NCBI GenBank assembly: GCA_017656305.1
Contig: JACDOG010000003.1
Coordinates: 124,001 to 188,000, forward strand
DNA length: 64,000 nucleotides
Direction: 5' to 3'
Source of the DNA: Thermoanaerobacteraceae bacterium
GTDB taxonomy: Bacteria; Bacillota; JADQBR01
Shown here: one piece after another, positions 6,969-55,817 of the stretch
Position numbering within the stretch: position 1 is the stretch's first letter
Layout: the number at the start of each line of letters is the position of its first letter
The notes under the pieces: generated by a model
Told to the model about the DNA's origin: nothing
Seen by the model: the letters and a program-made list of their open reading frames with translations, nothing else
The model's database searches: none
Translations under genes and position numbers: made by a program

Positions 6969-7047
6969 TACTCTTACTTGTCAAACCGCCGCATAATTGG
7001 ATATAATGCTAGCAAGAATTGATACCGTGAAGAAGGAAGGAATGGGA

Positions 7048-7467
7048 ATGACGCAAAAATACGGCAGCAAGAAGGTTGCTGCTATAGCCATTCAGATGGC
7101 ATTAACCGAAAGCAGGGAAGAAGAATATCAACTGAAGGAGAAGTACTTGAAACTGGGAGTACATACTGCTGCGGTGGATTACGGCGGCGAGTTTATCAAT
7201 TCTGTGAATAAGATTGTGGAACGGGCTGTGGTAGCGGCCAAACGGGAAAATGTCATTAAAGATACTCATGCCGAGGAAGGGGCAGTGGCCGGTGCGACGC
7301 GAGAGGCGCTGTCACAGATAATGCCCAAGGCCGTGGGGCTGAACGTGGGCGGGAAAATCGGCATTGCCCGCCAGCATGACCATATCAGTGTAGCTATCTT
7401 TTTTGGCATAGGATTGCTGCACTTGGATGAAGTGGCAGTGGGTTTGGGGCACCGGGCCGTTTCCTGA
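7048..7467 (+). CDS. HutP-family RNA-binding protein homologue
   Basis: 139 residues. Segments align by eye with Bacillus HutP, the histidine-responsive antiterminator: V-I-K-D-T-H-A-E-E-G-A-V-A-G-A-T-R-E-A-L corresponds to HutP's central helix, and H-I-S-V-A-I-F-F-G-I-G with G-L-G-H-R-A-V to its C-terminal strand region. The two HutP histidines in the central helix that, as I recall, bind Mg2+ (His73, His77) are replaced by glycines, so ligand sensing probably differs. AAGGAAGG at 7033-7040 favours the ATG at 7048 over 7042. It heads the aromatic amino acid cluster (aroH follows 40 bp later), and a UAG-rich repeat array lies upstream of aroF. A role in controlling these genes is inference. 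Confidence 0.72.
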   Translation: MTQKYGSKKVAAIAIQMALTESREEEYQLKEKYLKLGVHTAAVDYGGEFINSVNKIVERAVVAAKRENVIKDTHAEEGAVAGATREALSQIMPKAVGLNVGGKIGIARQHDHISVAIFFGIGLLHLDEVAVGLGHRAVS

Positions 7468-7507
7468 CGGGTTTCTTAAAAAATTTAATATGCGGAGGGT
7501 TGGTAGT

Positions 7508-7867
7508 ATGGCAGTAAGAGGAATACGTGGTGCAACATCCGTGGAAAAAAATGATGCCGGTATGATTAAGGAAGCCACTCAGGAGCTTCTGCGCAGGATG
7601 GTAGAGGAGAATGCAATCGTTTTAGAAGACGTGGCAAGTGCATTGTTTACGGTTACCAGTGATTTGAATGCGGCTTTTCCGGCTGCTGCTGCCCGGGAAA
7701 TGGGCTGGACTAAGGTCCCCTTATTGTGCGCGACGGAAATAGATGTTCCGGGAAGTGAGATGGGGATTATCCGGGTGCTCATTCATGTCAACACCACTAA
7801 AGCACAGGATGAAATCAATCATGTTTACCTGCACAAGGCAGCAAAGTTGCGGGAGGATTTACGTTGA
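7508..7867 (+). CDS. aroH: Chorismate mutase, AroH type
   Basis: Converts chorismate to prephenate, the branch point to phenylalanine and tyrosine. 119 residues, a trimeric pseudo-alpha/beta-barrel family like Bacillus AroH. Active-site residues are in place: R7 in R-G-I-R-G-A-T-S, C74 and E77 in C-A-T-E, R89, and Y107, each at or one position from the Bacillus numbering. GGAGG at 7494-7498 precedes the ATG at 7508. Its stop overlaps the TTG start of the TrpF-like gene (TTGA), so the two are translationally coupled. Confidence 0.95.
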   Translation: MAVRGIRGATSVEKNDAGMIKEATQELLRRMVEENAIVLEDVASALFTVTSDLNAAFPAAAAREMGWTKVPLLCATEIDVPGSEMGIIRVLIHVNTTKAQDEINHVYLHKAAKLREDLR

Positions 7868-8376
7868 CACCGTTCATGATTGTTTCCGGAGTGACAGATG
7901 TTGAGCAGGCCAGACGGCTCGTAGATGCGGGAGTAGTGGGCATCGGTTTTGTCTTTCACGGTGACAGTGCCGTTACTCCTGAAACTGCTAGGGAGATTGC
8001 CCTGAAGCTGCCTCCTTTAATATCGCGAATTGGTTTTTTTAAAGATGAACCTTGGTACAGTGTGGCGGAAATTGCCACCCTCTGCCGCCTGGAAGTGCTG
8101 GCTTTTGAAGGCGAAGAGGATACCGCTTATTTGAATAAATTTAGTGAGCACGTGTTGAAATACCGGCCGAACCTTTCGACATACGGCGGCGAAGAAATGA
8201 TTATCACGGATTTTGCCGGTGTAAAACCGGGTATAAACGCAGGCAGCTTGATTGTACGCTGTAAGGCTAATGAGGAGCAGGTACGGGAAGCCAGGCAAGT
8301 TATCCGGCCTTACGGTATTGAGGTGCGTCTCACCGGGAGGGAAGACTTTCCTAATTTAATTAACATGCTTAAATAG
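7864..8376 (+). CDS. Degenerate TrpF-like (phosphoribosylanthranilate isomerase fold) protein
   Basis: 170 residues, shorter than genuine TrpF (about 200). The TrpF pattern is visible: I-V-S-G-V-T-D-V-E-Q-A-R-R-L-V-D-A-G-V-V-G-I-G-F-V-F matches K-I-C-G-x-T-x-x-x-D-A at the start of the barrel, and R-I-G-F-F-K-D-E-P corresponds to the V-G-V-F segment. The catalytic cysteine of the K-I-C-G motif is serine here, and the C-terminal aspartate and serine-rich phosphate-binding segments are not recognisable. It is therefore unlikely to be a working isomerase and may bind a ligand or regulate. TTG start overlapping the aroH stop by 4 bp. No other trp gene is present. Confidence 0.62.
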   Translation: MTPFMIVSGVTDVEQARRLVDAGVVGIGFVFHGDSAVTPETAREIALKLPPLISRIGFFKDEPWYSVAEIATLCRLEVLAFEGEEDTAYLNKFSEHVLKYRPNLSTYGGEEMIITDFAGVKPGINAGSLIVRCKANEEQVREARQVIRPYGIEVRLTGREDFPNLINMLK

Positions 8377-8410
8377 GATGTGTGAGCAATCATATATTTT
8401 GTTTGATATG

Positions 8411-8463
8411 TAGGATGGTAGGAGTGAAGGAAAAATCGGTAGGATGGTAGGACGGTAGGGGTA
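8411..8463 (+). repeat. Array of five TAGGAYGG-like octamers upstream of aroF
   Basis: Units are TAGGATGG (8411), TAGGAGTG (8419), TAGGATGG (8440), TAGGACGG (8448) and TAGGGGTA (8456), in two blocks of two and three with a 13-nt gap. As RNA this gives UAG triplets at an 8-nt period. HutP-class proteins bind UAG triplets spaced by four bases, and a HutP homologue is encoded 0.95 kb upstream. GGACGG (8450-8455) can also pair with CCGTCC (8476-8481), enclosing the last unit. It could be an RNA leader element or a DNA operator. Confidence 0.6.
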
Positions 8464-8575
8464 ATAACGTGATGCTCCGTCCAGGGGTACTTTTTTATGC
8501 CTTTTTCCCCGTTCCGTTCCTGCCCCAAAAAGGGGGGGATAAGGTGTTTTTTTATTAAAAGTTGGCAGTTAGTGG

Positions 8576-8581
8576 TATAAT
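8576..8581 (+). promoter_or_regulatory. Probable aroF promoter, extended -10
   Basis: TATAAT preceded by TGG, an extended -10 element, 31 bp before the aroF start codon. The -35 region is poor. If used, transcription would start downstream of the TAGGATGG array, which would then act as DNA or belong to a longer transcript from aroH. Confidence 0.55.
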
Positions 8582-8611: not shown

Positions 8612-9643
8612 ATGATAGTGGTTATGGACCCTGGTGCAAGGAAAGAGCAGATTGATGCGGTGGTTAACCGTTTACAAAAAGAAGGGTTTGATACTCACCT
8701 GTCCACCGGAGTTTCCCGGACCATTATCGGGATTATCGGCGATAAGACCCGTTTGACGGGCTTGGCTTTGGAAGCAATGCCCGGCGTGGAAAAGGTAGTA
8801 CCCATTCTCCAACCCTTTAAGCTGGCGGGTAGGGAATTTAAACCGGAGGATACAGTGGTGAAAGTAACTCCAGATGTTCATATGGGTGGAAAACAAGTGC
8901 ATGTAATAGCCGGTCCCTGTGCTGTGGAAAGCGAGCAGCAGCTCATGGAGGTTGCCAGGGAAGTAAAGGCTGCCGGGGCCACGCTGCTGCGCGGCGGGGC
9001 ATTTAAACCCCGGACCTCGCCCTATTCCTTCCAGGGACTGGAAGAAGAAGGATTAAAGCTGCTGGCAGCGGCCCGTGAGGAAACGGGTCTACCGGTAGTG
9101 ACGGAAGTAATGGATGTGAGAAGCATTCCACTGGTAGCTAAATATGCAGACGTACTCCAGGTAGGTGCCCGCAACATGCAGAACTTTTTCCTGTTAAAGG
9201 AACTGGGGCGCATAGATAAACCCGTTCTGCTAAAACGCGGGCCTGCGGCAACCATCGAGGAATGGATTTTGGCGGCAGAGTATATCATGTCCGAAGGAAA
9301 TTATAATGTCATTCTCTGTGAACGCGGTATCCGCACTTTTGAAACCTACACGCGCAATACGCTGGACTTAAGTGCTGTTCCGGCTGTCAAGCGCCTGAGC
9401 CACCTTCCGGTAATCGTGGATCCCAGTCACGGTACAGGTAAATGGCACCTGGTTGCACCTATGGCCAAGGCAGCGCTGGCAGCCGGTGCTGACGGGTTGA
9501 TGATTGAGACGCACTGTCGCCCGGCGGAAGCGCTGTCTGACGGGCAGCAGTCGCTGACACCGGAAAATTTCGCGGAAATGATGACGGAACTGAGGGAAAT
9601 AGCGAAGGTATTAGGAAAAGAAATTGGCGGAGGTAAACAGTGA
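8612..9643 (+). CDS. aroF: 3-deoxy-7-phosphoheptulonate synthase (DAHP synthase)
   Basis: Condenses phosphoenolpyruvate and erythrose 4-phosphate, the first step of the shikimate pathway. 343 residues, type I-beta with an N-terminal ferredoxin-like regulatory domain (about 1-70) ahead of the TIM barrel, as in Thermotoga-type enzymes. Motifs are V-I-A-G-P-C-A-V-E-S, R-G-G-A-F-K-P-R-T-S-P, Q-V-G-A-R-N-M-Q-N, L-L-K-R-G and D-P-S-H-G-T-G. The regulatory domain suggests feedback control by aromatic amino acids. Strong GGGGGGA at 8598-8604; ATG at 8612. Overlaps pheA by 4 bp. Confidence 0.96.
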   Translation: MIVVMDPGARKEQIDAVVNRLQKEGFDTHLSTGVSRTIIGIIGDKTRLTGLALEAMPGVEKVVPILQPFKLAGREFKPEDTVVKVTPDVHMGGKQVHVIAGPCAVESEQQLMEVAREVKAAGATLLRGGAFKPRTSPYSFQGLEEEGLKLLAAAREETGLPVVTEVMDVRSIPLVAKYADVLQVGARNMQNFFLLKELGRIDKPVLLKRGPAATIEEWILAAEYIMSEGNYNVILCERGIRTFETYTRNTLDLSAVPAVKRLSHLPVIVDPSHGTGKWHLVAPMAKAALAAGADGLMIETHCRPAEALSDGQQSLTPENFAEMMTELREIAKVLGKEIGGGKQ

Positions 9644-10467
9644 AATTAGGCTATCTGGGTCCACCAGGAACGTTTTCACACCAGGCAGCCCAAAGATGGC
9701 TGCACCGACAATTTGATATCCTGGTTGACTATTCAAACGTGATGGAAACGCTGATGGCGGTGGTTAAGGGGCAGGTGGATGCTGCCGTGGTTCCCGTAGA
9801 GAATTCCATTGAGGGCAGCGTCACGCTGACCATGGACCTGCTGGCCCAGGAACAGTTGAATATCCTGGGGGAAACGGTGCTGGACATAAACCACTGCCTG
9901 GTGTCCAAGGAAAAGGAAGAACCGCTGGCAGTTATCGTGTCGCACCCGCAAGCCTTGGCGCAATGCCGGGGCTATTTGCAAAAATACTATCCCCATGCCC
10001 GTCTGGAGCAGGCGGAGAGTACCGCCCATGCAGCGCAGCTGGTGGCGGCGCGCCCCCGGGGCTGGGGTGCCATCAGCTCACGTTATGCGGCGGAATATAA
10101 CAACCTGGTAGTGCGGGAAGAAGGATTGGCGGATTTTGCATACAACCAGACCAGGTTTTTACTGGTAGGACGCGGGAAAGTGGCGCCCACCGGTAATGAC
10201 AAAACTTCACTGGTTTTCAGCCTGCCCCAGGACAAACCCGGAGGCCTGCATGCCATCTTGTGGGAGTTTGCCAGGAAAAACATCAATTTAACGCGTATAG
10301 AATCCCGGCCCAGCAAAAAAGAGCTGGGTCAGTACATCTTTTTTATTGACTGCGAGGGGCACCAGGATACCGCCCCGTTAAAACAGGTGCTTGAGATTTT
10401 GAAGGAAAAAACCTCGTTGCTGCGAGTCCTGGGGTCGTACTCGGTTTGCGGAAATGGTGGGTCGTAA
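9640..10467 (+). CDS. pheA: Prephenate dehydratase
   Basis: Converts prephenate to phenylpyruvate for phenylalanine synthesis. 275 residues: the catalytic dehydratase domain, beginning K-L-G-Y-L-G-P-P-G-T-F-S-H-Q-A-A and containing V-P-V-E-N-S-I-E-G-S-V, then a C-terminal ACT domain (about 190-265, with the E-S-R-P phenylalanine-binding motif) for feedback inhibition. The GTG start at 9640 overlaps the aroF stop (GTGA), with GGAGG at 9629-9633. No chorismate mutase domain is fused; aroH supplies that step. Confidence 0.96.
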   Translation: MKLGYLGPPGTFSHQAAQRWLHRQFDILVDYSNVMETLMAVVKGQVDAAVVPVENSIEGSVTLTMDLLAQEQLNILGETVLDINHCLVSKEKEEPLAVIVSHPQALAQCRGYLQKYYPHARLEQAESTAHAAQLVAARPRGWGAISSRYAAEYNNLVVREEGLADFAYNQTRFLLVGRGKVAPTGNDKTSLVFSLPQDKPGGLHAILWEFARKNINLTRIESRPSKKELGQYIFFIDCEGHQDTAPLKQVLEILKEKTSLLRVLGSYSVCGNGGS

Positions 10468-10468
10468 T

Positions 10469-11569
10469 ATGGATACCTTTAAAAGAATAACCATTATTGG
10501 CTTAGGTCTCATTGGCGGTTCGCTCGGCCTGGCTTGGAAGAAGGCTGGTGCCGCCCGGGAGATAGTGGGAGTGGATACCCGGGCGGACACCTGCCGGCGG
10601 GCCTGGAGCATCGGCGCCGTCCACTGGGCTTCCCCGGATTTGCAGGCTGCCCTTGACGGTGCACAGGTTGTGGTTCTGGCTGTCCCGGTGGCAGTTATGG
10701 AAGATGTGGCCCGTGAGGTAGCGGAATACGTGCCGGAAAACTGTCTTGTCACCGATGTGGGCAGTACCAAAACCAAAATTGTACGCACTTTATCCCGGAT
10801 ATTTGCCGGCAGGTGCCGCTTTTTAGGCGGGCACCCCATGGCCGGTTCGGAGAAGGCCGGTATTGACGGGGCAGACCCTTACCTGTTTGAAAATGCGGCA
10901 TATATACTGACACCTACTGCTGCACAGCAACAGGAGCTGGCTGTTATGGAAAATCTGGTGGGCAAACTGGGCGCCCAGCCATTGGTCCTGTCCCCGGAGG
11001 AGCATGATGCCATTGTAGCTGCTGTCAGCCACCTGCCTCACGTTGTTGCCGCCGGTCTGGTCAATACCGTGGCCCAGGTGGAGGAACAGCTGCCGCAGAC
11101 GCTGATGCTGGCGGCTGGCGGTTTCCGTGATACGACACGAATTGCCTCGGGCAGTCCCGATTTGTGGCGGGGAATTTGCCTCAGCAACCGGGAATACTTA
11201 ATGGACATGCTGGAGCGGATGCAGTACAATCTGGAAACCTTCAAGGAACTGCTTGCTGCCGGTGACGGGGAGGCGATACGGGACTTTTTTACCAAAGCCC
11301 GTAACACGCGGGAAAGTATTCCGGGCAAGCGCAGGGGTTTTCTGCCCCGGGTATTTGATTTGGTGGTTACGGTACCGGACAGGCCGGGCGTTATCGGTTC
11401 GCTGGCCCGGCTGTTGGGTGATCATGGTATCAATATTGCGGATATCGAGATTCTCAGGGCCCGGGAGGGAGACGGCGGAACTATTCGCATCGGTGTGCAG
11501 AACAGGGAAACCCTGGACAAGGCTTTGAAACTGCTGGTAGCAGCGGGATATCCGGTGCGGGAATTATGA
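10469..11569 (+). CDS. tyrA: Prephenate dehydrogenase with C-terminal ACT domain
   Basis: NAD(P)-dependent oxidative decarboxylation of prephenate to 4-hydroxyphenylpyruvate for tyrosine. 366 residues: Rossmann motif G-L-G-L-I-G-G-S near 13-20, G-G-H-P-M-A-G-S-E with the catalytic histidine, S-H-L-P-H-V, then an ACT domain over about the last 75 residues (P-D-R-P-G-V-I-G-S-L-A-R). The ATG at 10469 is 1 bp after the pheA stop and has GGTGGG upstream; an ATG at 10454 is possible but has a weaker site. Confidence 0.95.
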   Translation: MDTFKRITIIGLGLIGGSLGLAWKKAGAAREIVGVDTRADTCRRAWSIGAVHWASPDLQAALDGAQVVVLAVPVAVMEDVAREVAEYVPENCLVTDVGSTKTKIVRTLSRIFAGRCRFLGGHPMAGSEKAGIDGADPYLFENAAYILTPTAAQQQELAVMENLVGKLGAQPLVLSPEEHDAIVAAVSHLPHVVAAGLVNTVAQVEEQLPQTLMLAAGGFRDTTRIASGSPDLWRGICLSNREYLMDMLERMQYNLETFKELLAAGDGEAIRDFFTKARNTRESIPGKRRGFLPRVFDLVVTVPDRPGVIGSLARLLGDHGINIADIEILRAREGDGGTIRIGVQNRETLDKALKLLVAAGYPVREL

Positions 11570-11605
11570 ATTAGGAGTCAGACACTCATGCCGCGTTTTT
11601 TTTTT
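11557..11605 (+). terminator. Possible terminator after tyrA
   Basis: GCGG (11557-11560, inside the tyrA end) pairs with CCGC (11591-11594), with an inner GAGT/ACTC pair, followed directly by a run of ten T. The outer stem is short, so the assignment is tentative. Confidence 0.45.
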
Positions 11606-11670
11606 GCTTAATTACTTATATTCAGGGTAGAATCAGAATTGAGAAGGTAGGAGTCGGGAGGAATAACGGT

Positions 11671-12960
11671 ATGGAAATGCAGGTGAAGCAGGTACGAGCA
11701 ATAAATGGTAAAATCACTGTGCCAGGGGACAAGTCCATTTCTCACCGGGCGGTGATGCTGGGAGCCTTGGCTTCGGGGACTACCGAAGTGGAAGGTTTTT
11801 TAATGGGAGCGGACTGCCTGAGTACAGTCAACTGTCTCCGGTTGCTAGGGGTACCGGTAAAGTTGGCAGAAGATAAAGTGACCGTTATCGGGTGCGGCGG
11901 GAAGGATTTGCAGGTCCCTGACTCCGTACTGGATACGGGAAATTCCGGCACCACCACCCGTTTACTCATGGGTATCCTTGCGTCCCAGCCTGGGATGTAC
12001 GCGGTTTTAAGCGGCGACAGTTCCCTGAACAGGCGGCCCATGGACCGGGTTACCCGGCCCCTGCGCCGGATGGGAGCGGAAATTTTGGGCCGCGATGATG
12101 CCGCCCTGCTGCCCGTGACCGTCGTGGGTCGGGAGTTGACAGGACTCACTTACCATACACCTGTGGCCAGTGCTCAGGTGAAATCTGCCATTTTGCTGGC
12201 CGGGTTGCGGGCAAAAGGACACACGACGGTGGTAGAGCCTTCTCTATCGCGGGACCACACCGAACGCATGCTGCAGGCATTCGGGGTGAGACTGGAGCGC
12301 CAGGGCACCGCCGTCACCCTGGCCGGTGGGCAGACTCTGACGGGACAAACCATCAAGGTTCCTGGCGACATTTCCTCGGCAGCCTTTTTTATGGTTGCCG
12401 CCCTGGTGGTGGCCAACGGCAGTCTCACCATCAAAAACGTCGGCATTAACCCTACCCGCAGCGGTATTATCGATGCCCTACGGCAGATGGGGGCTGGGAT
12501 AACCCTGGAAAACCCCCGCAAGTACGGCTTTGAGGAAGTTGCCGACATTAAGGTGGAAAGCAGTTCGCTGCGGGCAGCGGAGTTCGGCGGGGACCTGATA
12601 CCCCGGATGATTGATGAAATACCTGCTCTGGCAGTGGCAGCCCTGGCTGCCCGGGGTAAGACAGTCATTCGTGATGCCGCGGAACTGCGCGTCAAGGAAA
12701 GTGACAGGATTACCATGCTGGCCAGAGAACTGCGCAAGTTGGGGGCGGAAATCACCGAACGGCCGGACGGAATGGAAATAACGGGAGGGAGGGCACTTAC
12801 CGGTACCACGGTAACCAGTTACGGGGATCACCGCCTGGCCATGGCCCTGGCTGTTGCCGGGCTGGCGGCCCGAGGGGTTACAACTGTGTCCGGGGTAGAG
12901 AGCGTTACCGTCTCCTTTCCTGGTTTCCAGGACCTGCTCCGGTCCGTAATTGAGAGTTAA
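11671..12960 (+). CDS. aroA: 3-phosphoshikimate 1-carboxyvinyltransferase (EPSP synthase)
   Basis: Transfers the enolpyruvyl group from PEP to shikimate 3-phosphate. 429 residues, full length. Family motifs: P-G-D-K-S-I-S-H-R near 20, L-D-T-G-N-S-G-T-T-T-R near 90, R-P-M-x-R, the central P-G-D-I-S-S-A-A-F-F, the E-I-P-A-L catalytic region, and L-R-V-K-E-S-D-R followed by Y-G-D-H-R-L-A-M-A. A GTT at the N-A-G-T/S-G-T region makes it class II-like. GGGAGGA at 11656-11662 lies eight bases before ATG 11671. It follows tyrA with a gap that holds a probable terminator. Confidence 0.96.
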   Translation: MEMQVKQVRAINGKITVPGDKSISHRAVMLGALASGTTEVEGFLMGADCLSTVNCLRLLGVPVKLAEDKVTVIGCGGKDLQVPDSVLDTGNSGTTTRLLMGILASQPGMYAVLSGDSSLNRRPMDRVTRPLRRMGAEILGRDDAALLPVTVVGRELTGLTYHTPVASAQVKSAILLAGLRAKGHTTVVEPSLSRDHTERMLQAFGVRLERQGTAVTLAGGQTLTGQTIKVPGDISSAAFFMVAALVVANGSLTIKNVGINPTRSGIIDALRQMGAGITLENPRKYGFEEVADIKVESSSLRAAEFGGDLIPRMIDEIPALAVAALAARGKTVIRDAAELRVKESDRITMLARELRKLGAEITERPDGMEITGGRALTGTTVTSYGDHRLAMALAVAGLAARGVTTVSGVESVTVSFPGFQDLLRSVIES

Positions 12961-34886: not shown

Positions 34887-35005
34887 CAATTTCCTTCGGG
34901 GCAAGGTGAAATTCCTTACCGGCGGTGACAGCCCGCGAGCCTTTACGGCAGACCCGGTGCAATTCCGGGGCCGACAGTGAAAGTCTGGATGGGAGAAGGA
35001 AATGA
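34887..35005 (+). promoter_or_regulatory. FMN riboswitch (RFN element)
   Basis: The conserved RFN blocks occur in order: CTTCGGGGCAAGGTGAAATT, CCGGCGGTGACAGCCCGCGA, GACCCGGTGCAATTCCGGGG, CCGACAGTGAAAGTCTGGAT and GGGAGAAGGA. It precedes ribD, with a terminator between, so FMN binding should cause premature termination. Confidence 0.96.
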
Positions 35006-38898: not shown

Positions 38899-39001
38899 CT
38901 CTTATCAAGAGTGGTGGAGGGACTGGCCCAGTGAAGCCCGGCAACCTTCCCGCAGGGGGAAAGGTGCTAATTCCTGCAGGATTTATCCTGGGAGATAAGA
39001 G
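38899..39001 (+). promoter_or_regulatory. SAM-I riboswitch (S box)
   Basis: P1 stem CTCTTATC / GATAAGAG encloses the S-box core: AGAGTGGTGGAGGGACTGGC, CCAGTGAAGCCCGGCAACC, AAAGGTGCTAATTCCTGCAG and GGGAGATAAG. SAM binding would favour the terminator at 39025. Confidence 0.96.
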
Positions 39002-54014: not shown

Positions 54015-54028
54015 ATGCTCCTGAGCAT
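54015..54028 (+). promoter_or_regulatory. ATGC-N6-GCAT palindrome 3, immediately upstream of the regulator start
   Basis: ATGCTCCTGAGCAT, 23 bp before the TTG start of the sigma-54 activator and just before its ribosome binding site. With a possible weak promoter (TTGAAA at 53990, TAAAAT at 54011) it would sit at the transcription start, suggesting autorepression. Confidence 0.62.
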
Positions 54029-54050
54029 CATTTGCCGAGGAGGGGTTAGC

Positions 54051-55817
54051 TTGCAGTCGCTGTTGGATTCCATTCATAACGGCCTGTTGATGATTGACAT
54101 TCATGCCAACATTCGTTTCGTCAACAAAGCGGCGGAACGGCTGCTGGGAATCGACCGGGCAGAAGTTCTGGGCAAGCCCATTAAAGAGGTGCTGCCGGAT
54201 ACCCGGTTAACGGAAGTTTTGGAAACGGAAGAAACCCAGGTCAGCCAGGAACAGACCGTTGACAACTGTACCCTGGTGGTCAACAGGACGCCCGTTTACG
54301 ACGAGAGCGGGCAGCTGACCGGTGCCGTTGCCGTGTTTCAGGATATCACCGAATTGGAAACCCTGTCCCGGGAGCTTTCCAAGGTCAAGCAGTTGAAAAA
54401 TGAACTGGAAGCGGTCTTTGATGCTTCTTATGACGAGATTTATGTTACCGATGGCAACGGGATTACCACCAGAATCAACAGGGTAGGCGAAAGCTACTAC
54501 GGTGTAAAAGCGGAAGAGATGGTGGGCAAGAATGTCCGGGAACTGGAAAAACAGGGTTATTTCAGTCCTTCGGTTGTAAGCATCGTACTGAAAGAAAAGC
54601 GTCGCGTTACCATCCCGCAGCAGACCAAGACCGGCAAGCAGTTAATTGTAACAGCCAACCCGGTTTTTGACGAGGATGGGAACATTGTACGTATTGTGGT
54701 CAACTCCCGGGATGTGACCGAGCTTACCAACCTGAGACAGAAGCTGCAGGAGACGGAGAAACTGGCCGAGACCTACCGCAACCAGATTATACAGATGAAG
54801 GGAAAACAGGACCAGAGCGTGACCATTGTGGCCGAAAGCGAGCAGATGAAGCAGATTCTAGAAATGGTCACCAGGGTGGCCCAGGTGGAGTCCACGGTGC
54901 TGTTGGTAGGTGAATCCGGTGTGGGTAAGGGTGTTCTGGCCAAAAAGATCCATGACCTCAGCCGGCGTGCCGACGGTCCTTTTATTACCATTAACTGCGG
55001 CGCCATTCCGGAAAACCTCCTGGAGTCCGAACTGTTTGGCTACGAACCCGGTGCCTTTACCGGAGCCCGGAAAGAGGGCAAGAAAGGGCTTATCGAAATG
55101 GCAGACGGCGGCACCTTGCTGTTGGATGAGGTGGGTGAGTTACCTTTAAACCTGCAGGTTAAGCTGCTGACCGTAATCCAGGAACGAAAGGTAATGCGCG
55201 TGGGGGGCAGCGAGCCCAAACCGGTTGACATCCGCATTATTGCCGCCACCAACCGTGACATTCAAAAAATGGTCAAGGAAGGGCGTTTTCGTGAAGACCT
55301 CTATTACCGGCTGAATGTTATTCCGGTAATTGTTCCCCCGTTGCGCCACCGCCGGGAGGACATACCGCCGTTGATATACCATTTTCTGGCCAAGTTCAAT
55401 GCCAAGTACCAGATTAATAAGAAAATCTCTCCCGAGGCACTGGAGTTGCTGACCAACTACCAGTGGAAGGGCAACGTGCGTGAAGTGGAAAATATCGTTG
55501 AGCGGCTGGTGGTTACCACCGACAGCAACGTCATTGAACCGGCGCACCTGCCTGATTACATTCTCAACTCCAGTACCAGTGCCGGCAGCCGGGTTTATGT
55601 CATGGACCTGTGCCCGCTGCGGGAGGCTACAGAAGAGGTGGAACGGCAGTTGATAACGAAAGCCTACGAACGTTACGACAACACATATAAGATGGCGGAA
55701 GTACTGCAAGTGAACCAGTCCACGGTAGTGCGGAAAATGAAAAAGTACATCGGTAAGGAAAACCGGCCGCGGGGTCGGCGACCGAAAAACAGTGCTGCTG
55801 TCCAGTTGGAAAGATAG
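54051..55817 (+). CDS. Sigma-54-dependent activator, PAS-PAS-AAA+-TyrR-type HTH
   Basis: 588 residues. Two PAS sensor domains (about 1-110 and 118-225), a short coiled linker, then the AAA+ domain with Walker A G-E-S-G-V-G-K-G near 287, the sigma-54-contact loop G-A-F-T-G-A at 334-339, L-L-D-E-V-G-E, and the arginine-finger block F-R-E-D-L-Y-Y-R-L. The C-terminal helix-turn-helix (N-T-Y-K-M-A-E-V-L-Q-V-N-Q-S-T-V-V-R-K-M) is of the TyrR/PrdR type rather than Fis/NtrC. TTG start at 54051, six bases after GAGGAGGGG. Its neighbours carry -24/-12 promoters and a shared palindrome, so it is the likely local activator. Effector unknown; an amino acid or a derived acid is a fair guess. Confidence 0.93.
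   Translation: MQSLLDSIHNGLLMIDIHANIRFVNKAAERLLGIDRAEVLGKPIKEVLPDTRLTEVLETEETQVSQEQTVDNCTLVVNRTPVYDESGQLTGAVAVFQDITELETLSRELSKVKQLKNELEAVFDASYDEIYVTDGNGITTRINRVGESYYGVKAEEMVGKNVRELEKQGYFSPSVVSIVLKEKRRVTIPQQTKTGKQLIVTANPVFDEDGNIVRIVVNSRDVTELTNLRQKLQETEKLAETYRNQIIQMKGKQDQSVTIVAESEQMKQILEMVTRVAQVESTVLLVGESGVGKGVLAKKIHDLSRRADGPFITINCGAIPENLLESELFGYEPGAFTGARKEGKKGLIEMADGGTLLLDEVGELPLNLQVKLLTVIQERKVMRVGGSEPKPVDIRIIAATNRDIQKMVKEGRFREDLYYRLNVIPVIVPPLRHRREDIPPLIYHFLAKFNAKYQINKKISPEALELLTNYQWKGNVREVENIVERLVVTTDSNVIEPAHLPDYILNSSTSAGSRVYVMDLCPLREATEEVERQLITKAYERYDNTYKMAEVLQVNQSTVVRKMKKYIGKENRPRGRRPKNSAAVQLER

Follow-up and report, generated by a model that had tools for sequence, protein, structure and literature searches.

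A HutP-family protein and a two-cluster NAG-repeat leader as a candidate regulatory system for aromatic amino acid genes

The hutP–aro gene cluster

The window (the whole 64-kb stretch of DNA that was analysed) carries a cluster of aromatic amino acid genes that is headed, as the original prediction had it and as Pfam profiles confirm for all but the weakly matched TrpF-like ORF, by a hutP-like gene (7048..7467, +; ATG at 7048, stop at 7467). A candidate sigma-70 promoter, TTGTCA-18-TATAAT (6978..7007, +), was found for the cluster by pattern scan; it agrees with 11 of 12 consensus bases and is a consensus match only. The next gene is aroH, encoding a type I chorismate mutase (7508..7867, +; Pfam CM_1, 1.5e-46; NCBIfam TIGR01796), followed by a TrpF-like ORF of 170 amino acids (7864..8376, +) with a weak PRAI match below cut-off. 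The presumed regulated gene, aroF, encodes DAHP synthase (8612..9643, +; Pfam DAHP_synth_1, 5e-85) and leads into pheA, tyrA and aroA (9640..12960, +; gene starts at 9640, 10454 and 11671, respectively), which were recognized by Pfam PDT, PDH_N and EPSP_synthase and whose order is kept in relatives. The TrpF-like protein starts with a sequence that reads VSG here and in loci L032 and L033 of the same family, at the position where an ICG motif with the catalytic Cys would presumably be expected in TrpF; judged by its sequence, this conserved protein may not be a TrpF enzyme. Elsewhere the window encodes a PAS/sigma-54-like regulator (54015–55817) and contains an FMN riboswitch (34888–35004) and a SAM riboswitch (38899–39001), both ordinary, the first preceding riboflavin-type genes and the second sulfur amino acid genes.

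The HutP-like protein of the window was matched in 64 of 101 related genomes. In most of the loci fetched, hutP lies immediately 5' of aroH, and often also before trp genes, aroF, pheA, tyrA, aroA and cmk; its conservation in these loci is usually higher than that of aroH. Of 399 genomes sampled from the phylum, 257 contain a member of the HutP family; these proteins are largely of one well-conserved type found beside aromatic genes. Several genomes, G027, G069, G081, G040 and G041 among them, encode a divergent second member of the family, with about 30% identity and frequently within ORFs of 260–280 amino acids.

A HutP-family protein with an altered ligand site

HutP is known from the Bacillus hut operon. 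The product of the hutP-like gene, an aromatic-type HutP of 139 amino acids, is a member of this family by both profile and fold and is a predicted RNA-binding protein. Its match to Pfam PF09021 (HutP) scores 174.7 bits against a cut-off of 25 (1.2e-51) and covers positions 1–128 of 128. An AlphaFold model built from four sequences reached a pLDDT of 90, compared with only 48 for a prediction from the single sequence. When the model was compared with the folds in the PDB, 11 matches had E <= 0.001 and every one was a HutP structure, the best being 1vea (E 2.6e-9, TM 0.78; TM range 0.69–0.78). This comparison led to B. subtilis HutP, which is about 25% identical to the protein and was missed when PDB sequences were searched by profile.

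In B. subtilis HutP, the ligands of metal and histidine are His73, His77 and His138. In the alignment to 1VEA, the positions of His73 and His77 are occupied by Gly78 and Gly82, two glycines that do not vary among 15 diverse relatives, and no histidine of the protein was aligned with His138. The claim that the homologue lacks the central-helix histidines is thus borne out. Because His73 and His77 are replaced by invariant glycines, the ligand site appears to have been rebuilt, and the aligned sequences indicate a pocket that no longer suits the histidine/Mg2+ mode. An assignment to the histidine-sensing hut type does not fit, as the ligand histidines are absent and the targets are aromatic and transport genes rather than histidine utilisation genes.

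Two clusters of NAG triplets before aroF

TAGG words occur 5' of aroF at 8411, 8419, 8440, 8448 and 8456; a sixth, at 8374, is out of register and overlaps the stop codon of the TrpF-like ORF. These five words had been described as octamers giving UAG every 8 nt, which holds for the words themselves but not for their even spacing: the array consists of two clusters of three NAG triplets each, with 5-nt spacers within clusters and 21 nt from 8419 to 8440. Site I (8411..8429, +) has its triplets at 8411, 8419 and 8427, and site II (GGTAGGATGGTAGGACGGTAG; 8438..8458, +; E 1.8e-16 with the covariance model R1 described below) at 8440, 8448 and 8456, both with a period of 8. The 18-mer of the array at 8438 fits GGYAGGAYGGYAGGAYGG at 18 of 18 positions, and no other place in the 64-kb window exceeds 15/18 on either strand. 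The sites of B. subtilis HutP are quoted with 4-nt spacers and a period of 7; the spacing here is different. The TAGGAGTC words reported at 11572 and 11648 do flank the tyrA–aroA junction, but they were rejected as members of the array, since the tyrA–aroA gap of seven relatives contains no such array. Two further NAG triplets with an 8-nt period (7504 and 7512; 7502..7514, +) lie over the aroH start codon and score 14/18 (p 0.055 in the window). A similar TAGnATGG is found in L032 and L033, and the pair is a possible weak translational site, suggestive only.

Downstream of the array, pattern scanning identified an intrinsic terminator, a TGCTCC-GTCCA-GGGGTA hairpin followed by a U-run (8473..8496, +), whose hairpin is conserved. 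A second C/G hairpin with its own U-run (8523..8553, +), similar in L032 and L033, is a possible tandem terminator. In leaders in general, a CACTCC...GGAGTG-type hairpin and then a U-run come after site II with its three NAG triplets, and five of the seven hairpin pairs show compensatory changes among 23 leaders. A TATAAT at 8576–8581, 3' of both terminators and just 5' of aroF, is also present in L032 and L033; by its sequence and position, it may be an internal promoter from which transcription would avoid the attenuator.

Site I is general in leaders. In a set of 76 leaders chosen by the repeat or the model, site I, which played no part in the choice, scores at least 10/11 in 38, against 0.6 expected; its AG spacing is enriched at 8 only (z=5.2), and the gap between the two clusters is mostly 17–33 nt. 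In the first two NAG triplets, A and G are 96–100% conserved, and the following base is G in about 66–75%; the conservation of site II is partly due to selection, because the repeat or model was used to choose the leaders.

Searches for known RNA elements returned nothing on the aroF leader. At the gathering threshold, Rfam matches in the window were FMN, SAM and tRNA, all away from the leader, and T-box RF00230 was unmatched; the genome of the window has 13 above-cut-off T-boxes elsewhere. A search of six element-bearing loci at E up to 0.5 gave a single c-di-AMP riboswitch, located elsewhere in its locus. A T-box or other Rfam element was therefore rejected as the identity of the aroF leader.

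Recurrence of the array and its association with hutP

The exact 18-mer has eight matches in the 101 related genomes, all eight within hutP–aro loci. In 60 hutP loci (691 kb), the coding strand has 33 places that reach at least 16/18 and the opposite strand has none; all 33 near-exact copies are intergenic and 5' of aroF, hutP or aroH. The 18-mer pattern is identical when reversed, which makes the backward pattern worthless as a search control. Scores of upstream regions for the repeat are bimodal against dinucleotide shuffles. In a control of 30 regions upstream of aroF from genomes lacking hutP, scores were at most 14 with the sole exception of G052. This genome carries the leader both at aroF and at other places without a detectable hutP; its congener G006 has hutP near a contig end. 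Several relatives lacking hutP have a T-box-like sequence before aroF instead of the repeat. When the 18-mer was scanned across a wider genome collection, the matches listed were mostly at chance level in other phyla. Among those listed, a few from Bacillota lie at aro loci (L144, L154, L156, L158 and L179), and L174 (Thermincola) has the same array and a terminator.

The association was also measured with R1, a covariance model of site II and the terminator, using E<=1e-6 as the match threshold. In the genomes used for the model, R1 was found in 46 of 64 with hutP and in 2 of 37 without. In 298 genomes outside model building, the corresponding counts were 94 of 193 and 4 of 105 (p=8e-18), although p values for R1 overstate independence because the genomes are related. 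The four exceptions lacking hutP in this set include two assemblies that are 80–87% complete and one congener of a species that has hutP. In the wide sample, R1 finds no match at 1e-6 in about half of the genomes with hutP, in part because R1 needs the terminator and because divergent HutPs were counted. When cis arrays and R1 are taken together, at least 54 of the 64 related genomes with hutP have the element, not always before aroF; absence of the array from such relatives had been put forward as evidence against the original prediction, and on this point the outcome is mixed but favourable.

Copies of the element unlinked to hutP lie directly 5' of aroF, tyrA, a hisC-like aminotransferase gene, TrpX genes and genes for SSF symporters, as well as of genes for DctP-type binding proteins, tryptophanase/tyrosine phenol-lyase and phenylacetate-CoA ligase. 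Most of these targets were named by reading the sequence, and a sample was scanned against family libraries. TrpX, a tryptophan-binding protein of a transporter, is encoded behind unlinked copies in about 10 genomes; the two TrpX proteins scanned had NCBIfam TrpX as best match at 340 and 372 bits, just below the cut-off of 390. In the window's own genome, an SSF sodium symporter gene (G000:C12:59534; L350) has the array on its RBS, as do the genes of related symporters in seven or more further genomes. A tryptophanase/tyrosine phenol-lyase-like gene in L102 (G078:C206) has a full leader with terminator. In L328 (G004:C70), the gene behind a copy of the element encodes a relative of PrdR and TyrR, a PAS/sigma-54 regulator.

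A proposed mechanism and its alternatives

In the minimum free energy fold of the window leader, GGACGG (8450–8455) pairs with CCGTCC (8477–8482), forming a possible antiterminator (8450..8482, +). The computed terminator probability is 0.00 with this pairing and 0.94 when site II is forced to be single-stranded. Over the leaders, forcing site II single-stranded raises terminator probability by a mean of 0.44 (Wilcoxon p=1.5e-6), with an increase in nearly all of 28. Order-shuffled arrays pair with the terminator arm equally well (combined p=0.34). A specific antiterminator pairing of the array was rejected for this reason, and the array–terminator switch is a plausible candidate. In front of several aroF genes and symporter genes, the array instead covers the RBS or the start codon.

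The explanation that we favour, and hold to be reasonably probable, is a regulon repressed by the HutP-family protein. The protein would recognize leader RNAs that carry two NAG clusters with an 8-nt period, each cluster serving one face of a presumed hexamer. When its ligand is plentiful, the protein would bind the array. The list of target genes points to an aromatic amino acid as the probable ligand, with tryptophan as a first guess. In leaders of the terminator type, binding would keep the array off the 5' arm of the terminator, which could then form and stop transcription into aroF; in leaders of the RBS type, the bound array would block translation. Conversely, when the ligand is scarce, the genes would be expressed. 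Repression is favoured over antitermination because arrays overlap the RBS and because, in silico, the terminator is freed once the array is blocked; both layouts suggest an effect opposite to that in hut, with expression lowered by binding. A tryptophanase-like target is a poor fit to an end-product repressor.

The same protein and array could also work with the opposite sign, binding of HutP causing antitermination or activation as in hut, which we judge unlikely. B. subtilis HutP is an antiterminator (PMC7430163), most arrays are followed by a terminator, and the tryptophanase-like target would suit activation. However, the array precedes the terminator stem instead of lying within it, blocking the array favours the terminator, and arrays over an RBS or start codon suggest a block. 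An end product that activates its own biosynthesis makes little sense, although a ligand signalling starvation would. Of the original prediction of a HutP-class antiterminator that senses another ligand and binds this array to control aromatic biosynthesis, comparative evidence supports the class, the altered ligand site and the action on this array to control aromatic genes; the antiterminator role is unsupported.

It is less likely still that a different factor reads the array, or that the RNA works by itself as a G-quadruplex or a ribosome standby site, with hutP merely sharing the operon. Binding of HutP to the array is itself a prediction from sequence, which leaves room for such a reading, and the best arrays, in which GG recurs every 4 nt, could form two-layer quadruplexes. 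Nevertheless, the array occurs almost only with hutP, unlinked genes included, and its layout copies the known HutP operator. Site I is often without GG runs, and conservation follows the A and G of NAG rather than the less conserved G after it, which fits a reading of NAG; the G-quadruplex was therefore rejected. Ribosome-mediated attenuation of aroF through a leader peptide from the ORF at 8472–8558 (MLRPGVLFYAFFPVPFLPQKGGDKVFFY), which has six Phe codons and two Tyr codons across the terminators, is very improbable and was rejected, since L032 has no in-frame ATG with RBS, L033 has stops, and the Phe codons are the U-runs of the two terminators.

Comparison with known systems

In B. subtilis, HutP prevents formation of the terminator in hut, and its operator consists of two clusters of NAG repeats in the target leader near that terminator (PMC7430163). 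The system proposed here shares with it the Pfam family, the fold and two NAG clusters beside a terminator. It differs in its low sequence identity, the change of His73 and His77 to Gly, a period of 8 instead of 7, many targets among aromatic rather than histidine genes, and an array that precedes the terminator or covers the RBS, with a probable opposite sign. TRAP (MtrB) of Bacillus, which reads 11 G/UAG repeats 2–3 nt apart, is alike by analogy, as it acts on NAG-repeat leaders of aromatic genes with a downstream terminator and RBS sites and has tryptophan uptake genes in its regulon (PMC7430163). Its fold, however, is unrelated, and the leaders described here have two clusters of about three NAG triplets with 5-nt spacers. 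The protein of the window has a HutP fold, and its aroF leader has six NAG triplets with those spacers, in place of the 11-mer protein and some 11 close G/UAG repeats of TRAP. T-box leaders control the same set of aromatic genes, also by terminators, and trpX is under T-box control in Streptococcus suis (PMC9382623); the aroF leader of the window, in contrast, has no T-box.

Among open-access papers, a search turned up none of relevance that links HutP to aromatic amino acids, to chorismate mutase or to Desulfotomaculum. The HutP family is known; what is new here is the changed ligand site, the changed RNA period, the proposed regulon and perhaps a changed sign. Whether these add up to an undescribed, phylum-wide aromatic regulon, with a HutP-family aromatic sensor acting on two-cluster 8-nt NAG arrays through termination and translation block, TRAP-like and independently evolved from the HutP fold, we consider an evenly balanced question. 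If true, it would name a regulator of aromatic amino acid supply for a large group of anaerobes and give a rule by which to annotate both "HutP family" genes and an RNA element that Rfam lacks. It would also present a case of one fold changing its ligand, its RNA period and perhaps the sign of its regulation.
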